Origin: Pseudomonadota bacterium | Lineage (GTDB): Bacteria; Pseudomonadota; Alphaproteobacteria; Rhodospirillales; Magnetospirillaceae | Length of the DNA: 64,000 nucleotides | Direction of reading: 5' to 3' | Assembly: GCA_021847015.1 (NCBI GenBank) | Contig: JAJZVW010000013.1 | Span: 1-64,000, forward strand | Part shown: piece after piece, positions 6,124 to 30,529 of the stretch | Layout of the letters: each line of letters starts with the position of its first letter | Numbering within the stretch: the first letter of the stretch is position 1 | Program-made: the position numbers and the translations under genes | Notes under the pieces: model-generated | What the model saw: the letters and a program-made list of their open reading frames with translations, nothing else | Told to the model about the DNA's origin: nothing | Database searches by the model: none

Positions 6124-6196
6124 GCGCCGGCGAAGGATCGTTGGGGCGCGGGAACATCCTGCGCCGAAAGGTCCCTCGGCTACGCTCGGGACGACA
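6113..6196. repeat. Dispersed palindromic repeat, copy 4
   Basis: TGTCATCCTGAGCG at the left, GAAAGGTCCCTCGGC in the right arm, and CTCGGGACGACA at the right end. It overlaps the final 11 bases of rmuC, whose stop codon falls within the repeat terminus. Confidence 0.8.
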
Positions 6197-6205
6197 AAAA
6201 GGGTT

Positions 6206-6286
6206 TGTCGTTCCGAGCGAGCGTAGCGACGAGGAACCTTTCAGCCGCGATGCCTGACGGCCCCTCGCCTTCGGCTCGGGACGACA
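6206..6286. repeat. Dispersed palindromic repeat, copy 5
   Basis: TGTCGTTCCGAGCGAGCG at the left, GAGGAACCTTTCAG in the left arm, and GGCTCGGGACGACA at the right. It lies 9 bases from copy 4, making a tandem pair between rmuC and the convergent asd gene. Confidence 0.8.
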
Positions 6287-20572: not shown

Positions 20573-21889
20573 ATGGCCGAGGGTATGCCAGGGCGGGCCG
20601 CTATGGTTCCCTTGAACGAACATCCTCTGCGCAGGATGCTTGCCGGCGAAGTGCACGCCCGGCCCTATGAGGTGCTGGGGGCGCCGGTGCGGATGTCGCA
20701 CCTGGCGGTCATCCACCGCGAAGGCGGGGATTCCGAGGCCGAGCGCACCCATCTGGCCCAATTGCTCGGTCAGCACGGCGCCGAGCCGCCGGGCGAGGGA
20801 ACGAATTATTTCAGCCGCGATCTGGGCGCGCTCCGCCTGCGGTTCGAGAGGCACGCCGAGTTTTCGACCTACACGTTCTTCCGTTTCGACGATTTCGACC
20901 ATCCCTTCTTCGGCACGGCGCTGGAGCTTGTGCCGCAGGCCTGGCTGCACCACTTGCCCGGCGACGTCGTCACCGCCGTCCACCTTGCGGTGGAACGCAC
21001 CGAGCGCCCGGCCGACGCGATCGCCCCCCTGTTCGACGGCAATCCCATGGTGGGCAGCGAAATGGCGGGCGGCGCGGCGCAGATCTGGACGGATTTCCGG
21101 CTGCACGCCGATGGATTCGGACGCATCCTGGTGCGCGACGTCACCCTGACCGGCGGCCAGACCGGCCGCCTGGCCCAGCGGCTGCTGGAGATCGAAACCT
21201 ACCGGCTGATGGCGCTGCTGGCGTTTCCTCTGGCCCGCCAGTCCAACGGCGAGGTCGCCCGGATCGAAAGGGACATCGCCGGCATCATCGCCGAGCTTGC
21301 CGATCCGGCGGTGTGCCAGAACGACCGCGCCCTCCTCGACCGGCTGACCGGCATGGCCGCCGAGGCGGAGCGCCTGGACGCCACCACCGCCTTCCGGCTT
21401 TCGGCCGCCCGCGCGTACCACGCCATCGTCCAGCAGCGCATCGCCGAATTGCGCGAGGAGCGCATCACCGGCCTGCAAACCGTCTCCGAGTTCATGGACC
21501 GCCGCCTGGCGCCGGCGATGAAGACCTGCGAAACCGCCACCGACCGCCAGCGCATGCTGGCCGGCCGCATCTCGCGCACGAGCGGCCTGTTGCGCACCCG
21601 GGTCGATATCGCGCTGGAGGAAAAGAACGGCGACCTCCTCAAATCCATGAACCGGCGGGCCAAGCTCCAGCTCCGCCTCCAGGAAACGGTCGAGGGGCTG
21701 TCAGTGGTGGCGATCAGCTACTACCTGCTGGGCCTGGTCTCTTACGCCGCCAAGGGTCTGAAGGCTGTCGGCGCGCCGGTCAGCCCCGACCTCGCCGCCA
21801 TCGTCGGCCTGCCCATCATCCTCGGCGCCGTCACCCTGGCCCTGCGCCGGCTGCGCCGCGCCCTGGGCCAAGGACACCGCGAGGAATAG
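20573..21889 (+). CDS. DUF3422 family membrane-anchored protein
   Basis: A 438-residue protein of a family common in proteobacteria with no known function. The N-terminus has the characteristic HPLRRMLAGEVHARPYE, then a mixed alpha/beta domain, a long helical region (residues 230-350, likely coiled coil), and two predicted membrane helices near the C-terminus (about 375-395 and 400-420). The shape recalls CorA-like or UPF membrane proteins, but no metal-binding motif is seen. It is divergent from tldD. The palindromic-repeat region follows its stop. Confidence 0.87.
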   Translation: MAEGMPGRAAMVPLNEHPLRRMLAGEVHARPYEVLGAPVRMSHLAVIHREGGDSEAERTHLAQLLGQHGAEPPGEGTNYFSRDLGALRLRFERHAEFSTYTFFRFDDFDHPFFGTALELVPQAWLHHLPGDVVTAVHLAVERTERPADAIAPLFDGNPMVGSEMAGGAAQIWTDFRLHADGFGRILVRDVTLTGGQTGRLAQRLLEIETYRLMALLAFPLARQSNGEVARIERDIAGIIAELADPAVCQNDRALLDRLTGMAAEAERLDATTAFRLSAARAYHAIVQQRIAELREERITGLQTVSEFMDRRLAPAMKTCETATDRQRMLAGRISRTSGLLRTRVDIALEEKNGDLLKSMNRRAKLQLRLQETVEGLSVVAISYYLLGLVSYAAKGLKAVGAPVSPDLAAIVGLPIILGAVTLALRRLRRALGQGHREE

Positions 21890-21922
21890 ACGGCGGTTCT
21901 CATCGTGCGCGCTGGCTCATGG

Positions 21923-22007
21923 TGTCATTCCGACCGAGCGTGAGCGAGCGGAGGGATCCCTACACGCGACGATGCCGGAAAGATCCCTCTCTTCGCTCGG
22001 GATGACG
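21923..22007. repeat. Dispersed palindromic repeat, copy 6
   Basis: TGTCATTCCGACCGAGCG at the left, GAGGGATCCC and GAAAGATCCCTC as inner arms, and GCTCGGGATGACG at the right. It lies directly downstream of the DUF3422 gene. Confidence 0.85.
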
Positions 22008-22067
22008 ATGAAAAAACCCGCGAAGAGAGCCGCTGGATGCCAGCGGTTCTCATTATGCATTTTTCGC

Positions 22068-22151
22068 TGTCATCCCGAGCCGACGGCGAGGGATCTTTCC
22101 GGCACTTTCGCGTGAAAGATCCCTCGGTCGCTCCGCCCCCTCGGGATGACA
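22068..22151. repeat. Dispersed palindromic repeat, copy 7
   Basis: TGTCATCCCGAGCC at the left, GAGGGATCTTTC and GAAAGATCCCTC as inner arms, and CTCGGGATGACA at the right. With its left flank from 22038 it is nearly the reverse complement of window positions 1-88 (only a few differences). Confidence 0.88.
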
Positions 22152-22366
22152 TAACCAGCGGGCGCACATAATGAGAACCGCTGGCTGGATGCGGTCTTGC
22201 GCGATTTCCGATCCATGATATCATGTGGTGCCCCCAAGGTACGCCATCTCAGATCCGGGGTGGCGGCATCCGCAACACGTGATCCCGATGGCCGGGTTCC
22301 GGCCAATGAGGCCCTGGATTCAGGGACGGAGGAGTCTTTGCGTTTTCGCTTCGCCGGCCCGCGCCC

Positions 22367-24370
22367 ATGCTGATCGGGGCCTTGGGGACATTGCTGGTTC
22401 TCGCCTTTTTGGGGGCCGTTCTCGGCCGCGATAAGCGGACCCCGGCGCTCGTCCATGCCGGTTGCCTGGTCGCCAGCCTCGCGCTTCTGGCCAGCGGATT
22501 GGGTCATTTAGGCCAGCCCACCGATGCGGCCACCACCATGGTGCTGCCCATCGGCCTGCCGTGGACCCAGGCGCATGTGCGCGTCGACAACCTGGCGGCC
22601 CTGTTCATGGTGATCGTCAATCTGTCGGCGGCGGCGGCCAGCGGTTTCGGCATCGCTTACGCCGGCCATCTGCCGGAACCGCGCCGGGTCACCCCGTTCT
22701 TTCCCCTGTTCCTGTTCGGCATGAATGCGGTGCTGATCGCCGACGACGCCTTCACCTTCCTGGTGTCCTGGGAATTCATGTCGCTGGCCTCGTGGGCGCT
22801 GGTGCTGTCGGACCATACCCGCGCCGAGAGCCGCCGCGCCGCGCTGGTCTACCTGACGATGGCGGCGTTCGGCACCTTCAGCCTGCTGACCTGCTTCGGG
22901 GTCATGGCCGGCCCGGGCGGCGACTACACCTTCGCCGCCATGCGCGCCCATTCGCTGGGGCCGGTGGCGGGCTCCCTGGCCGTCCTGCTGGCCCTTCTCG
23001 GCGCCGGCTCCAAGGCCGGCCTGGTTCCCCTGCACGCCTGGCTGCCCCTGGCCCATCCCGCCGCGCCCAGCCACGTCTCGGCGCTGATGTCGGGGGTGAT
23101 GACCAAGGTCGCCCTTTACGCCCTGATCCGCATCCTCATGGACCTGCGCGGCGACGTCGGCTGGGAATGGGGCGCGGTGATGATGGTGGTGGGCGGGATA
23201 ACGGCCGTGCTCGGCGTGCTCTATGCCGTTCTCCAGGACGACATCAAGACCCTGCTCGCCTATTCGACCGTCGAGAACGTCGGCGTCGTCGTCATCGGCC
23301 TGGGCCTGGCCATCGCCTTCAAGGCCGACGGCAAGACCACGCTGGCGGCCCTGGCCCTGGTCGCCGGACTTTACCACGCCATCAACCACTCGGTGTTCAA
23401 GAGCCTGCTGTTCCTGGGCTCGGGCGCCGTGATGACCGCCACCGGCCAGCGTTCCCTGGGCGTCCTGGGCGGGCTGCTCAACCGCATGCCCTGGACGGGC
23501 GCGGTGATGCTGGTGGGGTCGGCCGCCATTTCGGCGCTGCCGCCGCTCAACGGCTTCGTGTCGGAATGGCTGATCTTCCGCGCGCTGTTCAAGGGCCCGA
23601 CCTTGTCGCACTGGGCGATGAAATTCGGCGTGCCGGTGGTCGGCGCGCTGCTGGCTCTGGCGGCCGCCCTGGCGGCGGCGGGGTTCGTGCGCGCCTTCGG
23701 CGTGGCCTTCCTGGGCCGGCCGCGCTCGGCCGAGGCCGCCGCGGCCCGCGAGGTGCCGGCGCCGATGACGGCGGCGATGGCCGTCCTCGCCGTCCTGTGC
23801 GTGGTGCTGGGCGCCATCCCGGTGACGGTGACCAAGGCCCTCGACGGGGTGATCGAGCCTTTGACGGGCGTCCGTTTCTCGGTCTCGGCCAACTTGGGCT
23901 GGCCGTGGCTGTCGCCGGTCAGTTCGGATTGGGGATCGTATTCCGGCACCGTCCTGGTGCTGGTCGGCCTGTCGCTCTTCACCTTCACCATCGCCCTGGT
24001 CCACCGCCTGGGCACCCGGGCGCTGCGCCGCGCCGATGCCTGGGATTGCGGCCATCGCGAATCCCTTCCGGACGCGCAATACAGCGGCCAGAGCTTCGCC
24101 CAGCCGCTGCGGCGCGTGTTCGCCGCCACCATCTTCCGCGCCCGCGAGCGCGTGCAGATGCCCGAGCCCGGCGATTGCGGCCCGGCGACCCACGAGGTGT
24201 CGCTGGTCGACCCGGTGTGGCAGGGCCTTTACGCCTCCATCGGCCGGCTGGTCGATTACATCGCCGACCGGGTCAACCATCTGCAATTCCTCACCGTGCG
24301 CCGATACCTGCTGATGATGTTCGGCACGCTGGTGTTCCTTCTCCTGGTGGTGGCGATTCGGCAGCAATGA
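22367..24370 (+). CDS. hyfB: Hydrogenase-4 subunit B-like proton-pumping subunit
   Basis: A 667-residue polytopic membrane protein of the complex I NuoL/Mrp antiporter family. The ion-channel Glu is in FLVSWEFMSLASW (about residue 137), and the Lys-bearing GAGSKAGLVPLHAWLPLAHP lies near 220-240, followed by SHVSALMSGVMTKVALY. The C-terminal extension (DCGHRESLPDAQYSGQSFAQ onwards) matches the HyfB/HycC type. It is the first gene of a six-gene set and overlaps hyfC by four bases (ATGA). It should couple redox chemistry in the peripheral subunits to ion movement. Confidence 0.93.
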   Translation: MLIGALGTLLVLAFLGAVLGRDKRTPALVHAGCLVASLALLASGLGHLGQPTDAATTMVLPIGLPWTQAHVRVDNLAALFMVIVNLSAAAASGFGIAYAGHLPEPRRVTPFFPLFLFGMNAVLIADDAFTFLVSWEFMSLASWALVLSDHTRAESRRAALVYLTMAAFGTFSLLTCFGVMAGPGGDYTFAAMRAHSLGPVAGSLAVLLALLGAGSKAGLVPLHAWLPLAHPAAPSHVSALMSGVMTKVALYALIRILMDLRGDVGWEWGAVMMVVGGITAVLGVLYAVLQDDIKTLLAYSTVENVGVVVIGLGLAIAFKADGKTTLAALALVAGLYHAINHSVFKSLLFLGSGAVMTATGQRSLGVLGGLLNRMPWTGAVMLVGSAAISALPPLNGFVSEWLIFRALFKGPTLSHWAMKFGVPVVGALLALAAALAAAGFVRAFGVAFLGRPRSAEAAAAREVPAPMTAAMAVLAVLCVVLGAIPVTVTKALDGVIEPLTGVRFSVSANLGWPWLSPVSSDWGSYSGTVLVLVGLSLFTFTIALVHRLGTRALRRADAWDCGHRESLPDAQYSGQSFAQPLRRVFAATIFRARERVQMPEPGDCGPATHEVSLVDPVWQGLYASIGRLVDYIADRVNHLQFLTVRRYLLMMFGTLVFLLLVVAIRQQ

Positions 24371-25314
24371 CGGCGATCCTCTTGCAATTCGCGCACATTC
24401 TGCTGGTGGTGGCCCTGGCGCCGCTGGTGACCGGCTGGGTCCGGCTGGTCAAGGCGCGCTTGAACGGGCGGTGCGGACCGTCGCCGTTCCAGCCCTACCG
24501 CGACCTGTACCGCCTGCTCCAGAAGGAGGCGGTCATCGCCCATTCGGCGTCGTGGATCTTCCGCGCCGCCCCCTACGTCACCTTTGCGGCGGTGTGGCTG
24601 GCCGCCTGCATCGTGCCGACCTTCACCACCGACCTGCTGCTCGCCCCCGCCGCCGACCTGATCGCCCTGGTGGCGCTGCTGGGGCTGGCGCGGTTCTGGA
24701 CCGCGCTGGCCGGAATGGACGTGGGCACCGCCTTCGGCGGGCTGGGGTCGTCCCGCGAAATGCTGATCGCCAGCCTGGCCGAGCCGGCCATGCTGATGGT
24801 GACCTTCTCGCTGTCGCTGCTGTCGGGCTCGACCTCGGCCGCGCATATCGCCGCCTTCGTGCTGTCGGGTGGCATCGGGCTGTCGGTTTCGCTGGGGTTG
24901 GCGCTCGCCGCCATGGTCATGGTGGCCATCGCCGAGAACGGCCGCATCCCCATCGACAATCCCGCCACCCACCTGGAACTGACCATGGTCCACGAGGCCA
25001 TGGTGCTGGAATATTCCGGCCGCCACCTCGCCATGATCGAGGCTGCGGGAATGGTGCGCCTGACCCTGTTCATGGCCCTGATCGGCTGCCTATTCATGCC
25101 CTGGGGCATGGCCCGGCCGGGGGCGGACCTGGCGGAGATCGCCATCGGGCTCGGCGCCTTCCTGGGCAAGACCTTCGCGCTCGGCACCGTGCTGGCCCTG
25201 TTCGAGACCTCCATCGCCAAGATGCGGGTGTTCCGCTACGCGGACTTCCTGGGCGGGGCGCTGCTGCTGGCGCTGCTCGCGACCATCTTCCACTATGTCT
25301 CGGAGGCCGTGTAG
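24367..25314 (+). CDS. hyfC: Hydrogenase-4 subunit C-like membrane subunit (NuoH type)
   Basis: A 315-residue membrane protein of the respiratory complex I subunit 1 family, the piece that anchors the peripheral arm to the membrane. It has QPYRDLYRLLQKEAV near residue 40, the Glu-rich loop IAENGRIPIDNPATHLELTM and VHEAMVLEYSGRHLAM, as in HyfC/HycD. There are about eight hydrophobic segments. It starts within the hyfB stop (ATGA) and abuts the GTG of hyfE directly, so translation is coupled on both sides. Confidence 0.92.
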   Translation: MTAILLQFAHILLVVALAPLVTGWVRLVKARLNGRCGPSPFQPYRDLYRLLQKEAVIAHSASWIFRAAPYVTFAAVWLAACIVPTFTTDLLLAPAADLIALVALLGLARFWTALAGMDVGTAFGGLGSSREMLIASLAEPAMLMVTFSLSLLSGSTSAAHIAAFVLSGGIGLSVSLGLALAAMVMVAIAENGRIPIDNPATHLELTMVHEAMVLEYSGRHLAMIEAAGMVRLTLFMALIGCLFMPWGMARPGADLAEIAIGLGAFLGKTFALGTVLALFETSIAKMRVFRYADFLGGALLLALLATIFHYVSEAV

Positions 25315-25980
25315 GTGTTCGCGCACCTCTCCTACGACGTCGCCCACCTGATCGGCGCCACGGTGCTGATGGCCGGCTTCGGGCTGCTCTACCAGCGCCG
25401 GCTCCAGGCGGTGCTGAACACCTTCGCCTTCCAGGCGCTCGCCCTCGCCGCCGCCGCCGGCTGGCAGGCCCATGTGCAGAACGCCCCCCATCTGTGGGCC
25501 ACCGCCGGCATCGCCCTGGTGTTCAAGGCGCTGCTGGTGCCATTCGCCCTACACTGGCTGGTGGAGCGGCTGGGAATCCACCGCACCGTCGAGACGGCGC
25601 TCTCGATCGGCTGGACCATGATCGTCGGCGTCGCCCTGGTGGCGCTGTCGATCATGCTGGTGCTCCCCGTGACCGCCGGGGCCGCCGCGCTCACCCGCGA
25701 GAGCCTGGCGCTCGCCATGAGCGTCGTCCTGCTCGGCCTGCTGATGATGATCACCCGCCACAACGCCGTGACCCAGGTGGTGGGGTTCATGGCCCTTGAG
25801 AACGGCCTCATCCTCGCCGCGGTATCGGCCAAGGGCATGCCGCTGGTGGTGGAGATTTCGATCGCGTTCTCGGTGCTGGTGGCGATGATCCTGTTCGGCA
25901 TCTTCTTCTTCCGCATCCGCGAGCGGTTCGACAGCCTCGACGTCCAGTACCTCGAAACCTTCCGCGGGGACCGCCAATGA
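25315..25980 (+). CDS. hyfE: Hydrogenase-4 subunit E-like membrane protein (NuoK type)
   Basis: A 221-residue membrane protein with about seven hydrophobic helices. The segment RHNAVTQVVGFMALENGLIL near residue 145 carries the conserved Glu of the MnhC/NuoK/HyfE group, and the tail FFFRIRERFDSLDVQYLETFRGD is typical of HyfE. The start is GTG, directly after the hyfC stop. Its own stop overlaps the hyfF start by four bases (ATGA). It presumably contributes to the ion pathway. Confidence 0.9.
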   Translation: MFAHLSYDVAHLIGATVLMAGFGLLYQRRLQAVLNTFAFQALALAAAAGWQAHVQNAPHLWATAGIALVFKALLVPFALHWLVERLGIHRTVETALSIGWTMIVGVALVALSIMLVLPVTAGAAALTRESLALAMSVVLLGLLMMITRHNAVTQVVGFMALENGLILAAVSAKGMPLVVEISIAFSVLVAMILFGIFFFRIRERFDSLDVQYLETFRGDRQ

Positions 25981-27464
25981 TCTCCTACGTGGCGGCCCTG
26001 TCGCACACCGCCAATCCCCTGCTCTGGATTCTCGGCAGCCCCCTGGCCGGGGCGGCGCTGCTGGCGCTCCTGCCCCGCTGGCGGGCGGCGGCGATCGTCA
26101 ACGTGGTGGTGTCGGGTGTCACGCTGGCGGCCGCCCTGACGCTGTTCCAGCACCGCCCGGCGCCGACGCGCCTGTTGTTCATCGACGATTTCAACATCTA
26201 CCTGGTGGCGCTGACCGCCTTCGTCGGGTTCACCACCAGCGTCTTCTCGGCCGCCTACATCGCCCGCGAAACGGCGGCCCGGCGGCTGCGGCCGGTGCAT
26301 CTGCGCTTCTACCACTCGATGTACCAGGCCTTCCTGTTCACCATGCTGCTGGCGCTCTCGGCCAACAACACCGGGGTGATGTGGGTGGCCGTCGAGGCGG
26401 CGACGCTCACCACCGTGCTGATGGTCAGCCTGTACCGCACCCGCGAGGCCATCGAGGCGGCCTGGAAGTACTTCATCCTGTGCTCGGTGGGCATCGGTCT
26501 GGCGCTGTTCGGCACCATCCTGGTCTACCTCGCCGCCGAGCCGGTCATGGGCGACGGCGCCGACGCCATGGCCTGGACCCTGCTGATCGGCCGCGCCGCC
26601 GCCTTCCAGCCCGACCTGCTCAACCTCGCCTTCGTGTTCGTGCTGGTGGGATACGGCACCAAGGTGGGCCTGGCGCCGCTGCATGCGTGGCTTCCCGACG
26701 CCCACGCCGAGGGCCCGACGCCGATCTCCGCGGTGCTGTCGGGCCTGCTGCTGAACGTGGCCCTTTACGCGCTGCTGCGCTTCAAGATGCTGATCGCCGC
26801 CAACGGGCACACCCTGGCGCCGGGGCCGCTGATGGTGATGATGGGGCTGTCCAGCCTGTTCCTCGCCGGGTTCATGCTGTACCGGCGCGGCGACATCAAG
26901 CGCCTGTTCGCCTATTCGTCCATCGAGCACATGGGCGTCATCACCTTCACCTTCGGCATGGGCGGAGCCGTCGCCAACTTCGCCGGACTGATGCACATGA
27001 CCATGCATTCGCTGACCAAGTCGGCGATCTTCTTCGCCGTGGGCATCATCTCGCAGAATGCCGGGACCAAGCGCATCGCCGACATCCGCGGCCTGACCGT
27101 CAGCCACCCCTTCCTCGGCTGGACCTTCCTGCTGGCGGTGCTGGCCATCGCCGGCCTGCCGCCCATGGGCGTGTTCATGAGCGAATTCCTGGTGGTCAGC
27201 TCCACCTTCGCCCGCCAGCCGCTGCTGGCGCTGCCGCTGGCGCTGGGGCTGCTGCTGGCGTTCGGGGCGCTGGTCAGCCGGGTCCAGGGCATGGCGTTCG
27301 GCACCCCGCTGGCCGCCGCCGGCCATGGCAGGCCGTCGCCCATGGCCAACGCGATGGCCTACGCGCCGCTTTCCGCCCACATGGTTCTGGTGGTGGTAGC
27401 CGGCCTCTACCTGCCGCCGGTGCTGGTGTCCTGGTTCCAGACCGTCGCCAAATTGCTGGGGTAG
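25977..27464 (+). CDS. hyfF: Hydrogenase-4 subunit F-like antiporter subunit
   Basis: A 495-residue polytopic NuoN/NuoM-type subunit. VAVEAATLTTVLMVSLY holds the channel Glu (about 140), and GYGTKVGLAPLHAWLPDAHAEG and PTPISAVLSGLLLNVALY form the family signature. SSIEHMGVITFTFG and LMHMTMHSLTKSAIFFAVG follow. With HyfB this gives the complex two antiporter-like modules. No third one (HyfD) is present. It is followed after three bases by the large-subunit gene. Confidence 0.93.
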   Translation: MISYVAALSHTANPLLWILGSPLAGAALLALLPRWRAAAIVNVVVSGVTLAAALTLFQHRPAPTRLLFIDDFNIYLVALTAFVGFTTSVFSAAYIARETAARRLRPVHLRFYHSMYQAFLFTMLLALSANNTGVMWVAVEAATLTTVLMVSLYRTREAIEAAWKYFILCSVGIGLALFGTILVYLAAEPVMGDGADAMAWTLLIGRAAAFQPDLLNLAFVFVLVGYGTKVGLAPLHAWLPDAHAEGPTPISAVLSGLLLNVALYALLRFKMLIAANGHTLAPGPLMVMMGLSSLFLAGFMLYRRGDIKRLFAYSSIEHMGVITFTFGMGGAVANFAGLMHMTMHSLTKSAIFFAVGIISQNAGTKRIADIRGLTVSHPFLGWTFLLAVLAIAGLPPMGVFMSEFLVVSSTFARQPLLALPLALGLLLAFGALVSRVQGMAFGTPLAAAGHGRPSPMANAMAYAPLSAHMVLVVVAGLYLPPVLVSWFQTVAKLLG

Positions 27465-27467
27465 GCC

Positions 27468-28988
27468 ATGTGGGGCAACATCACGCTGCTGGAGTTCCTG
27501 TCCCTGGGCCGCGAGGTGCCGGCCTCCCGGCCCTGGCCCCGCTTCGTGCTCGACGGCAAGAGCTGGCGCCAGCTAGTGGAGCGCATGGACGCCGCCGAAT
27601 GGGTGCTGCTGGCCGAGTGGGGCGAACCGGACGAGGTTCACGCCGCCCTTCGCGACGAGGAGACCGGCGACATCGCCATCGCCAGCCGGTCCAGCCCCGA
27701 TCGCCGGTTCTTCGCCATCGGCCAAGTGCGCCCCGGCGCGGTGCGGATGGAACGCGCCATCCGCGACCTGTGGGGCCTGGCCCCCGAAGGCTTGGAGGAC
27801 CAGCGTCCGTGGCTGGACCACGGCCGCTGGGGCAGCCGCCATCCGCTGGCGTCATCCCCCGCACCGGCCGCGGCCGAACCCTACCGCTACAAGTTCCTCG
27901 CCGCCGAGGGCGACCAGTTGCACCAGATTCCGGTCGGCCCCGTCCACGCCGGCATCATCGAGCCCGGCCATTTCCGCTTCCACGCCCAAGGAGAGACGGT
28001 GGTGCGGCTGGAGGAACGGCTGGGCTACGTCCACAAGGGCATCGTCGCCGCCATGACGGGCAAGCCGGTCGCCGATGCCGCCCGCATCGCCGCCCGCATT
28101 TCCGGGGATTCGACCGTGGCCTATTCCCTGGCGTTCGCCCGCGCTGTCGAGGCGGCGCTCGGCTGCGAGGCGCCGCCCCGCGCCCATTGGCTGCGCGCCC
28201 TGATGGCCGAGATCGAGCGCATCGCCAACCATCTGTTCGACATCGGCGCCATTTGCAACGACGCCGCCTTCGCCATCATGCTGTCGCACATGGGCGTGCT
28301 GCGCGAACGCCTCCTCAAGGCCACCGAGTCCCTGTTCGGCCACCGCTTCGCCATGGACCGGATCGTTCCCGGCGGCGTCGCGGTGGACATCGACGAGGCG
28401 GGCGTCGAAGCCCTGCGGCACGTGATGCGGGACGTCGGCAAGGGGTTCAAGAAGGCCACCGCGCTCTACCACGAGACCCCGTCCCTGCTGGACCGCACCA
28501 ACGGCACCGGCATCGTCCACGGCGCTCTGGCGCACCGGTTCGGGGCCGGCGGCTTCGTGGGGCGGGCATCCAGCCGGGGACACGACGCGCGCCGGGTCCC
28601 GGGCTATGCCCCTTACTACACCCTCGACTTCATGGTGCCGGTCCGCGCCGAAGGCGACGTCAACGCCCGCATCGAAGTCCGCATCGAGGAGGTGCGCGCC
28701 AGCCTGGGGCTGATCGAGCAGATCCTGGCCCGCCTGCCGGACGGACCCGTCCGCATGGCATTGCCGTCGGGCGCGGGGGAAGGGATCGCGCTGGTGGAGG
28801 GTTTCCGCGGCGAGGTGATCGTATGGGTGCGGGTGTCCGAAGCGGGCACGGTCACCCAGGTCCACGCCCACGACCCCTCGTGGTTCCAATGGCCGCTGCT
28901 GGAAGCGGCCATCGAAGGCAACATCGTCGCCGACTTCCCGCTGTGCAACAAGTCCTTCAACTGTTCCTATTCGGGGCACGACCTGTGA
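27468..28988 (+). CDS. hyfG: Hydrogenase-like large subunit lacking nickel ligands (HyfG/NuoCD type)
   Basis: A 506-residue fusion: a short NuoC-like N-terminus (to about 125), then the NuoD/[NiFe] large-subunit fold (LEERLGYVHKG, MAEIERIANHLFDIGAI). In true group 4 hydrogenases the first nickel site reads RxCGxCxxxH. Here it is RISGDSTVAY (residues 210-219), with Ser at 212 and 215 and Tyr for His. The C-terminal pair is also altered: Cys 493 and Cys 499 in LCNKSFNCSYSG are five residues apart, not the DPCxxC spacing. No [NiFe] centre can form in the known way. This matches Ehr (energy-converting hydrogenase-related) large subunits. The redox substrate is unknown. Confidence 0.9.
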   Translation: MWGNITLLEFLSLGREVPASRPWPRFVLDGKSWRQLVERMDAAEWVLLAEWGEPDEVHAALRDEETGDIAIASRSSPDRRFFAIGQVRPGAVRMERAIRDLWGLAPEGLEDQRPWLDHGRWGSRHPLASSPAPAAAEPYRYKFLAAEGDQLHQIPVGPVHAGIIEPGHFRFHAQGETVVRLEERLGYVHKGIVAAMTGKPVADAARIAARISGDSTVAYSLAFARAVEAALGCEAPPRAHWLRALMAEIERIANHLFDIGAICNDAAFAIMLSHMGVLRERLLKATESLFGHRFAMDRIVPGGVAVDIDEAGVEALRHVMRDVGKGFKKATALYHETPSLLDRTNGTGIVHGALAHRFGAGGFVGRASSRGHDARRVPGYAPYYTLDFMVPVRAEGDVNARIEVRIEEVRASLGLIEQILARLPDGPVRMALPSGAGEGIALVEGFRGEVIVWVRVSEAGTVTQVHAHDPSWFQWPLLEAAIEGNIVADFPLCNKSFNCSYSGHDL

Positions 28989-29000
28989 TGATTCGTTCGT

Positions 29001-29185
29001 TGTCTTCCCGAGCGCACCGACATTCCGAATGTGTCGGTGCACAATTCGTTGATTTTGTGGGCCGATTCACCCGGCAAAAGGTTCAAGCCTTTGAACTTGT
29101 TGCCGGGATCGGACCACTAGCCGGCGGCGAGGGATCCTTCACGCGGGAACGCCCGAAGAATCCCTCGGCTACGCTCGGGATGACA
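29001..29185. repeat. Dispersed palindromic repeat, copy 8, split by a ~105-base hairpin insert
   Basis: The left end TGTCTTCCCGAGCG (29001-29014) and the right part CCGGCGGCGAGGGATCC...CTCGGGATGACA (about 29120-29185) form one repeat unit. Between them lie about 105 unrelated bases with two hairpins: GCACCGACA/TGTCGGTGC at 29014-29040, and CCGGCAA...TTGCCGG enclosing AAGGTTCAA/TTTGAACTT at 29071-29106. The insert is less GC-rich than its surroundings. Confidence 0.65.
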
Positions 29186-29196
29186 GGAAAAAGGTT

Positions 29197-29285
29197 TGTC
29201 GTTCCGAGCGAGCGCCAGCGGCGAGGAACCTTTCAGCCGCGGCGCCTGAAAGGTCCCTCGGTCGCTCCGCTCCCTCGGCATGACA
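29197..29285. repeat. Dispersed palindromic repeat, copy 9
   Basis: TGTCGTTCCGAGCGAGCG at the left, GAGGAACCTTTCAG and TGAAAGGTCCCTCG as inner arms, and CCCTCGGCATGACA at the right. It closes 22 bases before the hyfI start. With copy 8 it fills the 319-base gap between hyfG and hyfI. I see no gene in that gap. Confidence 0.85.
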
Positions 29286-29307
29286 CCGCCAGCGCGGGCA
29301 TACGCCG

Positions 29308-29844
29308 ATGATTCCGCCCATCGCCCACATCCTGTTCCGCAACCTCGTCCGGGGTCCCGCCACCATCAGGGGGACGCTCCCGCCGGACCCCGACGGCGTC
29401 GCCGAACTGGCCCAGGCGGTGGGGAGCGAAGCGCGGGCGCGGCTGGGCCGCTCGCTGTCCATCCGCGCGGTCGACGCCGGATCGTGCAACGGCTGCGAAT
29501 TGGAGCTGCACGCCGTCAACAACCCCGTCTACGACCTCGAACGCTTCGGCATCCGCTTCGTCGCGTCGCCCCGGCATGCCGACGTGCTGCTGGTGACCGG
29601 CCCGGTAACCCGCAACATGGAAGAGGCGCTGACGCGCACCTACGATGCCGCGCCCTCGCCGAAATGGGTGGTGGCCCTGGGCGATTGCGCCCGCGACGGC
29701 GGCTGCTTCGCCGGCACCTACGCCGTGGCGAGCGGCGTCCACAACGTGGTGCCGGTGGACCTGCACATCCCCGGCTGCCCGCCGGCTCCCAAGCAGATCC
29801 TGACCGGCCTGCTGGCGCTGCTGCAAACGGTCGCCAAGCGTTAG
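29308..29844 (+). CDS. hyfI: Hydrogenase-4 subunit I/NuoB-like iron-sulfur subunit
   Basis: A 178-residue small subunit that would carry the [4Fe-4S] cluster next to the large-subunit active site. The four ligands are present: Cys 60 and Cys 63 (DAGSCNGCELELHAV), Cys 127 (LGDCARDGGC) and Cys 157 (IPGCPPAPKQIL). So the iron-sulfur site is intact although the partner's nickel site is not. Its ribosome site is weak, and 319 bases of repeats separate it from hyfG, so it may need read-through or its own promoter. No HyfH/NuoI ferredoxin-like gene follows. It overlaps the convergent gene by four bases. Confidence 0.92.
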   Translation: MIPPIAHILFRNLVRGPATIRGTLPPDPDGVAELAQAVGSEARARLGRSLSIRAVDAGSCNGCELELHAVNNPVYDLERFGIRFVASPRHADVLLVTGPVTRNMEEALTRTYDAAPSPKWVVALGDCARDGGCFAGTYAVASGVHNVVPVDLHIPGCPPAPKQILTGLLALLQTVAKR

Positions 29845-30445: not shown

Positions 30446-30529
30446 TGTCACCCCGAGCTGACGCGAGGGGTCTTTCGGGCAGGATATGCTTGAAAGATTC
30501 CTCACTCGCTACGCTCCCTCGGAATGACA
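30446..30529. repeat. Dispersed palindromic repeat, copy 10
   Basis: TGTCACCCCGAGCTGACGCG at the left, GAGGGGTCTTTCGG and TGAAAGATTCCTC as inner arms, and CCCTCGGAATGACA at the right. It ends two bases before the tgt stop codon (30532). Confidence 0.85.

Follow-up and report, generated by a model that had tools for sequence, protein, structure and literature searches.

A Hyq-type, nickel-free relative of group 4 hydrogenases and complex I probably encoded by a six-gene locus of the Magnetospirillaceae

The Hyq complex of Azorhizobium caulinodans, an ‘endo-hydrogenase’ encoded by hyqRBCEFGI, was described between 2009 and 2012 (PMC2650096, PMC2930871, PMC3357923). Its HyqG is reported to lack both CxxC motifs and to have three conserved cysteines (PMC3357923), and hyq genes are reported from Azospirillum, Bradyrhizobium, Rhizobium leguminosarum and Rhodopseudomonas, all of which were recovered as hyq holders in the present analysis. 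Ehr complexes, as defined in PMC6349859 and PMC10284858, combine antiporter-like subunits with a group 4-like large subunit from which the nickel and iron ligands are absent. A locus with these features lies at positions 22367-29844 of the window, the whole 64,000-nucleotide stretch analysed here (positions 1 to 64,000 of contig JAJZVW010000013.1, assembly GCA_021847015.1, Magnetospirillaceae). The six-gene complex that it encodes is almost certainly of the Hyq type, and thus an Ehr-type, nickel-free member of the hydrogenase/complex I superfamily, because its gene set, gene order, missing CxxC motifs and cysteines match. A preliminary description of the locus had proposed a hydrogenase-4-like complex of Ehr type without a nickel site; this is correct, and Hyq is the closer published name. 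Its implication that nothing was known about such complexes is not supported, the Hyq complex of A. caulinodans having been published.

The six genes are co-oriented on the forward strand in the order B-C-E-F-G-I, and most overlap or nearly touch. Antiporter-type proton-pump subunits are encoded by the hyfB-like hyqB (22367-24370; NF005086 profile, 823 bits, over the cut-off) and the hyfF-like hyqF (25977-27464; NF005043, 808 bits, over the cut-off). The hyfC-like hyqC (24367-25314; PF00146) encodes a membrane anchor of the NuoH/HycD type, and the hyfE-like hyqE (25315-25980), which has a GTG start, a membrane subunit (NF008556, 88.7 bits, under the cut-off of 136). The large subunit gene hyqG (27468-28988) joins a NuoC-like N-terminus to a NuoD/hydrogenase-like domain without nickel ligands, and hyqI (29308-29844) encodes the small subunit (PF01058), with one [4Fe-4S] site, four cysteines and a hydrogenase-type CxxC. 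These profiles support the gene content given in the preliminary description, with HyfE under its cut-off; the 319-bp spacer between hyqG and hyqI had gone unmentioned there.

By its published description, the A. caulinodans system agrees with the window locus in its six structural genes and their order, in a HyqG of about 504 residues with a NuoC-like N-terminus and no CxxC, and in four HyqI cysteines; both HyqG proteins have three cysteines, numbered 258, 491 and 497 there and 263, 493 and 499 here. It differs, by the same description, in having hyqR upstream and NifA/sigma-54 control, neither of which is seen at the window locus, whereas the 319-bp spacer is a feature of the latter.

Among solved structures, HyqG is best matched by HycE (PDB 7z0s; 282 bits), followed by MbhL (187), Aquifex NuoCD (166) and Thermus Nqo4 (162), and HycE is also the best fold match, with a TM-score of 0.84 by query length. 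The best solved match of HyqC is HycD (131 bits), and the closest solved relative of HyqI is likewise found in the E. coli formate hydrogenlyase; HyqE has no PDB sequence match up to an E-value of 1. A 34-protein tree places all Hyq sequences in a single clade (support 100/99). Adjoining it is a second group without nickel ligands, found in two relatives (98/97); together the two groups join HycE/HyfG (96/94), apart from NuoD.

This second group, sister to Hyq in the tree, comprises HycE-like large subunits in open frames of 711 and 743 residues (L198, G005:C45; L199, G004:C59), which carry RVSGVGS at the first nickel motif and ASFGLT(I/V)AGCDR at the second; a weak HyfH-like match lies beside the L199 subunit in G004. 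Two NuoD-like proteins (L205, G003:C9:204156-205256; L206, G034:C3:337321-338388) have RICVPEPD at the first nickel motif and lack the second, and are possibly another nickel-free relative.

The pocket of HyqG and the pump subunits

In a joint alignment of 59 HyqG sequences with HycE, HyfG, NuoCD and others, Cys241, Cys244 and His248 of HycE fall on Ser212, Ser215 and Tyr219 of HyqG, and Cys531 and Cys534 on Ser500 and Gly503, so that all four nickel cysteines are absent. RISGDSTVAY (HyqG residues 210-219, codons at 28095-28124, forward strand) stands at the place of the N-terminal CxxC and aligns with RVCGICGFAH of HycE, while residues 493-506 (CNKSFNCSYSGHDL, codons at 28944-28985, forward strand) stand at the place of the C-terminal CxxC, at the protein end. 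The cysteines that HyqG does have are 233, 263, 493 and 499, the last two at positions other than those of the nickel cysteines. The preliminary description had read RISGDSTVAY as a nickel motif with both cysteines turned into serine and the histidine into tyrosine, and had doubted the spacing of Cys493 and Cys499; the alignment with HycE agrees on both counts. Cys493 and Cys499 do not take over the role of the nickel cysteines in this alignment, and Cys263, Cys493 and Cys499 are often lost outside the Alphaproteobacteria.

The site had also been called dead, a term that does not suit it. Within the set of 59, which includes two second copies within their genomes, R210, S212, D214, E165, S496, N498, G503 and D505 are identical throughout and K495 is kept in 58. 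Position 215 is serine in 52, and position 219 is tyrosine in 44 and histidine in 12; Cys263, Cys493 and Cys499 are present in 56, 57 and 56 respectively. A core of RxSGD and NKSFN is also kept in 20 HyqG sequences read outside the class, save for three partial exceptions (L227, which is divergent, L235 with RVAGDS and L243 with RSCGDS). In most of these 20, one or more of the three cysteines is replaced, and in this wider sample the three Hyq cysteines are not universal. The pattern of substitution indicates a site that has been rebuilt and strongly conserved, rather than one that is dead.

Glu165, Arg447, His255 and Glu408, which handle protons in hydrogenases, are all retained in HyqG. Since this is so, and since the nickel cysteines are replaced, as are His38 and Tyr87 (Nqo4 numbering), the quinone ligands of complex I, the pocket is hydrogenase-like in its proton residues, yet metal-free and unlike that of complex I. 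The protein ends in SYSGHDL where HyfG continues for about 32 residues, and so has no C-terminal extension; in HycE and HyfG this extension is removed by a protease.

The other subunits were compared after length and stop filters that kept 54 of 56 HyqB, 56 of 58 HyqC, 58 of 59 HyqF and 51 of 53 HyqI sequences. E136, K216, K247, K345 and E400 of HyqB occur in all 54, and HyqB keeps the lysine of transmembrane helix 7 that HycC of formate hydrogenlyase has lost. HyqF has E140, K229 and E403 in 58 of 58, and the lysine of NuoM transmembrane helix 8 is replaced by Asn260 in all 58, as it is in E. coli HyfF. In HyqC, D197, E139, E190, E204 and E210 are present in 56 of 56 and most acids of the E-channel are kept; E199 and E201 in the loop of HycD correspond to A200 and H202, with a three-residue insertion nearby. 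The four small-subunit cysteines noted in the preliminary description are nearly complete across HyqI (Cys60, Cys63 and Cys127 in 51 of 51, Cys157 in 50 of 51), and their motif is the hydrogenase-type CxxC, not the adjacent CC pair of complex I NuoB.

Distribution of hyq and its relation to nitrogen fixation

hyqG was found in 32 of 387 evenly drawn Alphaproteobacteria (about 8%; E-values up to 1e-70) and in 47 of 299 genomes of a phylum sample, 30 of them outside the Alphaproteobacteria and 17 within. The order B-C-E-F-G-I recurs in the 59 loci apart from contig cuts and three exceptions: hyqI is on the other strand in L085 and L087, and was not found in L058 though about 4 kb remained. L085 and L087 come from one genus, and their hyqI, upstream of hyqB, still adjoins the operon. 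The same order is seen in the 20 non-class loci read out of 30, with one hyqI and part of one hyqB lost to contig ends, and none of these 20 contains HyfH. Recurrence on this scale is far beyond chance. A further set of at least 80 named loci was found through patterns inside the protein, so that conservation there is biased. Named relatives among the matches listed include Magnetospirillum sp. UT-4 (75%), Telmatospirillum, Azospirillum, Mesorhizobium, Bradyrhizobium and Rhizobium johnstonii 3841, which makes an origin of the window in the Rhodospirillales probable. All 30 non-class genomes with hyq also have a complex I NuoD, although in two the match consists of fragments that score under the cut-off, and the genome from which the window derives also carries nuoD.

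That genome has two nifD genes and hypD. Both nifD copies are full-length and over the family cut-off (G000:C27:16653-18077 and G000:C23:3998-5398); a NifA site and a sigma-54 promoter lie upstream of nifH at the C23 copy, and none was found in the scanned C27 stretch. It also contains a weak group 1-like hydrogenase match (C58, 24 bits).

Many holders of hyq have neither gene. Among the 32 hyq-positive Alphaproteobacteria, nifD is present in 8 and hypD in 11, and 21 have neither, hypD being absent from those 21. In the 30 non-class holders the corresponding figures are 5, 14 and 16, with hypD absent from those 16. Thus 37 of 62 holders are without both genes, absence being judged on drafts at least 90% complete, with vnf and anf outside the search. 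The 62 are the 32 class and 30 non-class genomes, and leave aside 11 of the 17 class genomes of the phylum scan, in which nifD and hypD were not searched; the 21 class genomes include one doubtful case, G011 (900 kb). G011 has a completeness of 100, yet its genus mate G020 measures 6.2 Mb; hyq is present in it, and neither nifD nor hypD was found.

Upstream of the window locus, at 21200-22366, there is no TGT-N10-ACA and no sigma-54-like site at up to 2 mismatches. When about 900 nt of upstream sequence was scanned for a sigma-54 promoter together with a NifA site, 10 of 12 nifH genes had the pair and 0 of 53 hyq operons did, although 23 of these operons lie in genomes with nifD; the background is two such pairs on the two strands of hyq loci totalling 933,556 bases. 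NifA control of the window locus was rejected on the lack of a site near hyqB and the 0 of 53. NifA/sigma-54 control is a regulatory trait of one species and does not define the Hyq family. Because 37 of the 62 holders are without nifD and hypD, and because none of the 53 hyq operons has such a promoter pair, recycling of nitrogenase hydrogen (H2) cannot be the general job of Hyq, and any link with nitrogen fixation is partial.

Electron input, substrate and competing explanations

No HyfH/NuoI gene is present in the operon, nor are genes for HyfA, HyfD or NuoE/F/G/I-type subunits; for HyfD, no genome-wide search was made. Within these bounds, the lack of an electron-input subunit and of HyfD reported in the preliminary description is upheld for the operon, and the genome search for a HyfH/NuoI partner that it suggested gave a single match, of the complex I NuoI type, some 6 kb from the genome's own nuoD. 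A HyfH/NuoI-type partner elsewhere in this genome was rejected on that result; as a positive control, the search did recover a genuine HyfH in G020, where its neighbour shares 68% identity with HycE. Clustering of neighbouring genes in sets of 59, at least 80 and 20 loci, which overlap partly and are in some cases cut by contig ends, returned only helix-turn-helix (HTH) regulators as widely recurrent and no partner gene, and formate dehydrogenase genes are not among the recurrent neighbours. The remaining neighbours belong to unrelated families, and several of the ‘families’ are antisense or otherwise spurious frames. hyqR, which encodes a small HTH regulator, lies directly upstream at 17 loci of the 59-locus set, and no hyqR-like gene stands directly upstream of hyqB in the window. 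A different HTH protein, whose C-terminal part is longer, is the upstream regulator at six of the 20 non-class loci (L229, L236, L237, L240, L241 and L242).

Beyond the gene content, residues and distribution observed, we infer a carrier, a substrate, a direction and proton pumping. Hyq may be a proton pump that is driven by redox chemistry without nickel and exchanges electrons with a soluble carrier, the pocket reaction being most likely on quinone. Electrons would enter or leave through a low-potential ferredoxin or flavodoxin docked directly on HyqI, at the site taken by HyfH/NuoI in relatives. The rebuilt pocket, enclosed by HyqI, HyqG and HyqC, would house the other half-reaction, and quinone is its likeliest partner because every holder tested for complex I has it (30 of 30 and the window's own genome). 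The redox reaction would be coupled to proton movement and might run in reverse, with proton-motive force spent to make low-potential electrons; the H2 effects seen in A. caulinodans would then be indirect. This reading is favoured by the recurrent six-gene set and order, the single NuoI-type match in the window's genome, the lack of a recurrent partner, the conservation of the rebuilt site, the pump residues, the four HyqI cysteines, the presence of complex I in the holders and the 37 of 62 holders without nifD and hypD. The mechanism as a whole is plausible but falls somewhat short of probable, because the known quinone ligands are absent.

Several observations weigh against it. His38 and Tyr87 are represented in HyqG by Ile164 (59 of 59) and Gly213 (58 of 59). 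The canopy aspartate, strictly conserved across hydrogenases and complex I according to PMC9474812, is Asn498, and with this asparagine and neither His38 nor Tyr87, quinone binding of the known type is unsupported. In the AlphaFold model of HyqG (mean predicted local distance difference test score, pLDDT, 82.9), residues 143-189 and 483-506 score below 50, leaving the pocket unmodelled. Among class genomes, nifD is present in 8 of 32 with hyq and in 7 of 355 without it (Fisher odds ratio 16.6, p 4e-6), and the figures for hypD are 11 of 32 and 15 of 355 (odds ratio 11.9), both without correction for kinship; among 41 relatives, nifD occurs in 17 of 23 with hyq and 4 of 18 without. Such enrichment is what a connection with nitrogen fixation or H2 in some of the holders would give. 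Finally, H2 phenotypes are reported in the published A. caulinodans genetics (PMC3357923, PMC2930871).

It is also conceivable, if rather unlikely, that the complex is not self-contained and depends on a dedicated electron-input partner encoded elsewhere, such as an oxidoreductase without similarity to HyfH. Formate dehydrogenase has been proposed as partner for other Ehr complexes in PMC6349859, and HyqI would lack a cover on the surface that HycF caps in formate hydrogenlyase. Against this, no such gene recurs near the operon in the three sets of loci and the window's genome has no additional HyfH relative, unlinked partners of other families lying outside the search.

An unlikely alternative on present evidence is that Hyq pumps ions while its proximal cluster directly reduces a soluble small molecule such as a disulfide or polysulfide, as in the sulfane reductase MBS of the archaeon Pyrococcus furiosus. 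By the account in PMC7684303, MBS is also a complex I relative without the quinone ligands or a full nickel site, and the Hyq pocket is polar and conserved. However, the same account gives MBS a three-cysteine catalytic cluster, formed by a motif three residues shorter, two of the four nickel cysteines, no proton glutamate and a ferredoxin-input subunit, MbsN. Hyq differs throughout: HyqI has the full CxxC and four cysteines, which disfavours MBS-like catalysis at a three-cysteine cluster, E165 is kept, and there is no subunit of the MbsN kind.

A third explanation makes Hyq a hydrogenase of a fourth, nickel-free kind, in which H2 activation or proton reduction would occur in the rebuilt pocket next to the cluster of HyqI. 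The proton-donor glutamate is kept in HyqG, and such an enzyme would be compatible with holders that have neither nif nor hyp genes; however, there is no metal-ligand set, Cys263, Cys493 and Cys499 being lost in non-class members. To our knowledge, no H2 chemistry is known for a site of the HyqG kind. The case for it comes from A. caulinodans, where, as published (PMC3357923, PMC2930871), diazotrophic cultures lost more H2 once hyq was deleted, nodules formed by hyq hup double mutants leaked H2, much H2 was evolved microaerobically by a nifK hup strain in which hyq was intact, and H2 recycling persisted after deletion of the hup/hyp operon. The hyq deletion also took hyqR, the effects are in vivo only, and the text available does not tie the H2 of the nifK hup strain to hyq. 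The preliminary description had named operon-dependent H2 activity as an observation that would count against it: such activity is reported in vivo for A. caulinodans, whereas the available text holds no report for other species, a cell-free assay or a purified complex. A hydrogenase of this kind is improbable. Because the A. caulinodans genetics point to H2 chemistry, a specific form may be framed, an H2:quinone oxidoreductase that pumps protons with the RxSGD/NKSFN pocket and one [4Fe-4S] cluster, needing neither Hyp maturation nor a known hydrogenase metal site; this is more doubtful still.

That Hyq is a [NiFe] hydrogenase is very unlikely, because the nickel cysteines are replaced and many holders are without hypD. 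A variant with other ligands (Cys263, Cys493 and Cys499, with serine or histidine) could draw on the near invariance of the three cysteines in the 59-locus set and on hypD in the window's genome. It is scarcely tenable, given the 37 of 62 holders without hypD and nifD and the lack of a C-terminal extension for a maturation protease, and nickel binding by these cysteines was rejected on their loss in many of the 20 non-class members.

A dead site in a decaying operon can practically be dismissed: although all four metal ligands are absent and a 319-bp, repeat-bearing spacer splits hyqG from hyqI, the frames are open, the new motif, pump residues and cluster cysteines are strictly conserved across the phylum, and spacers of more than 90 bp between hyqG and hyqI occur at five other loci among those measured. 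The spacer (28989-29307) carries a dispersed intergenic repeat, with BLAST matches in the same window at about 117-181, 6125-6267, 22084-22166 and 30488-30529. The repeat is rich in palindromes and has several diverged copies in the window, at 1-243, 6125-6267, 21923-22166, 28989-29307 and 30447-30529.

Hyq among its relatives

The Hyq complex, its missing CxxC motifs and its in vivo H2 effects in A. caulinodans were already known, as PMC3357923 sets out. New here are the spread of hyqG, the 37 of 62 holders without nifD and hypD, and the lack of NifA/sigma-54 promoters at the 53 hyq operons scanned. These operons are widespread, in about 8% of the sampled Alphaproteobacteria and in 30 non-class genomes, and their records bear labels such as ‘nickel-dependent hydrogenase’. 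In public plasmid records (H4, H18 and H22), HyqG appears as ‘nickel-dependent hydrogenase large subunit’ or ‘hydrogenase expression protein HypE’. If the proposed mechanism is correct, Hyq would combine a proton pump whose machinery is kept with a new conserved active site, and would illustrate the way in which a complex I fold can acquire another substrate; should the H2 activity published for Hyq prove genuine, H2 chemistry without nickel would follow. The holders without nitrogenase and hypD, together with the invariant R210, S212, D214, E165 and N498 and the nearly invariant K495, make these readings separable.

By description, Hyq shares a group 4-like large subunit without CxxC with the Ehr complexes reported from Nitrospira and from lineages close to Cyanobacteria (PMC10284858, PMC6349859), and Mrp-antiporter-like subunits with those of PMC6349859. 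Some of these Ehr complexes differ, according to the same accounts, in being paired with formate dehydrogenase genes, which do not recur beside hyq. E. coli hydrogenase-4 and formate hydrogenlyase provide the closest solved relatives of HyqG, HyqC and HyqI; unlike them, Hyq has no nickel ligands, no C-terminal extension and no HyfA, HyfD or HyfH, and Asn498 takes the place of the canopy aspartate. With respiratory complex I (NuoB/C/D/H/L/M), Hyq shares the fold, the pump subunits and the position of the cluster, but it is without the NADH/NuoI input subunits and without His38 and Tyr87, and has CxxC rather than CC.

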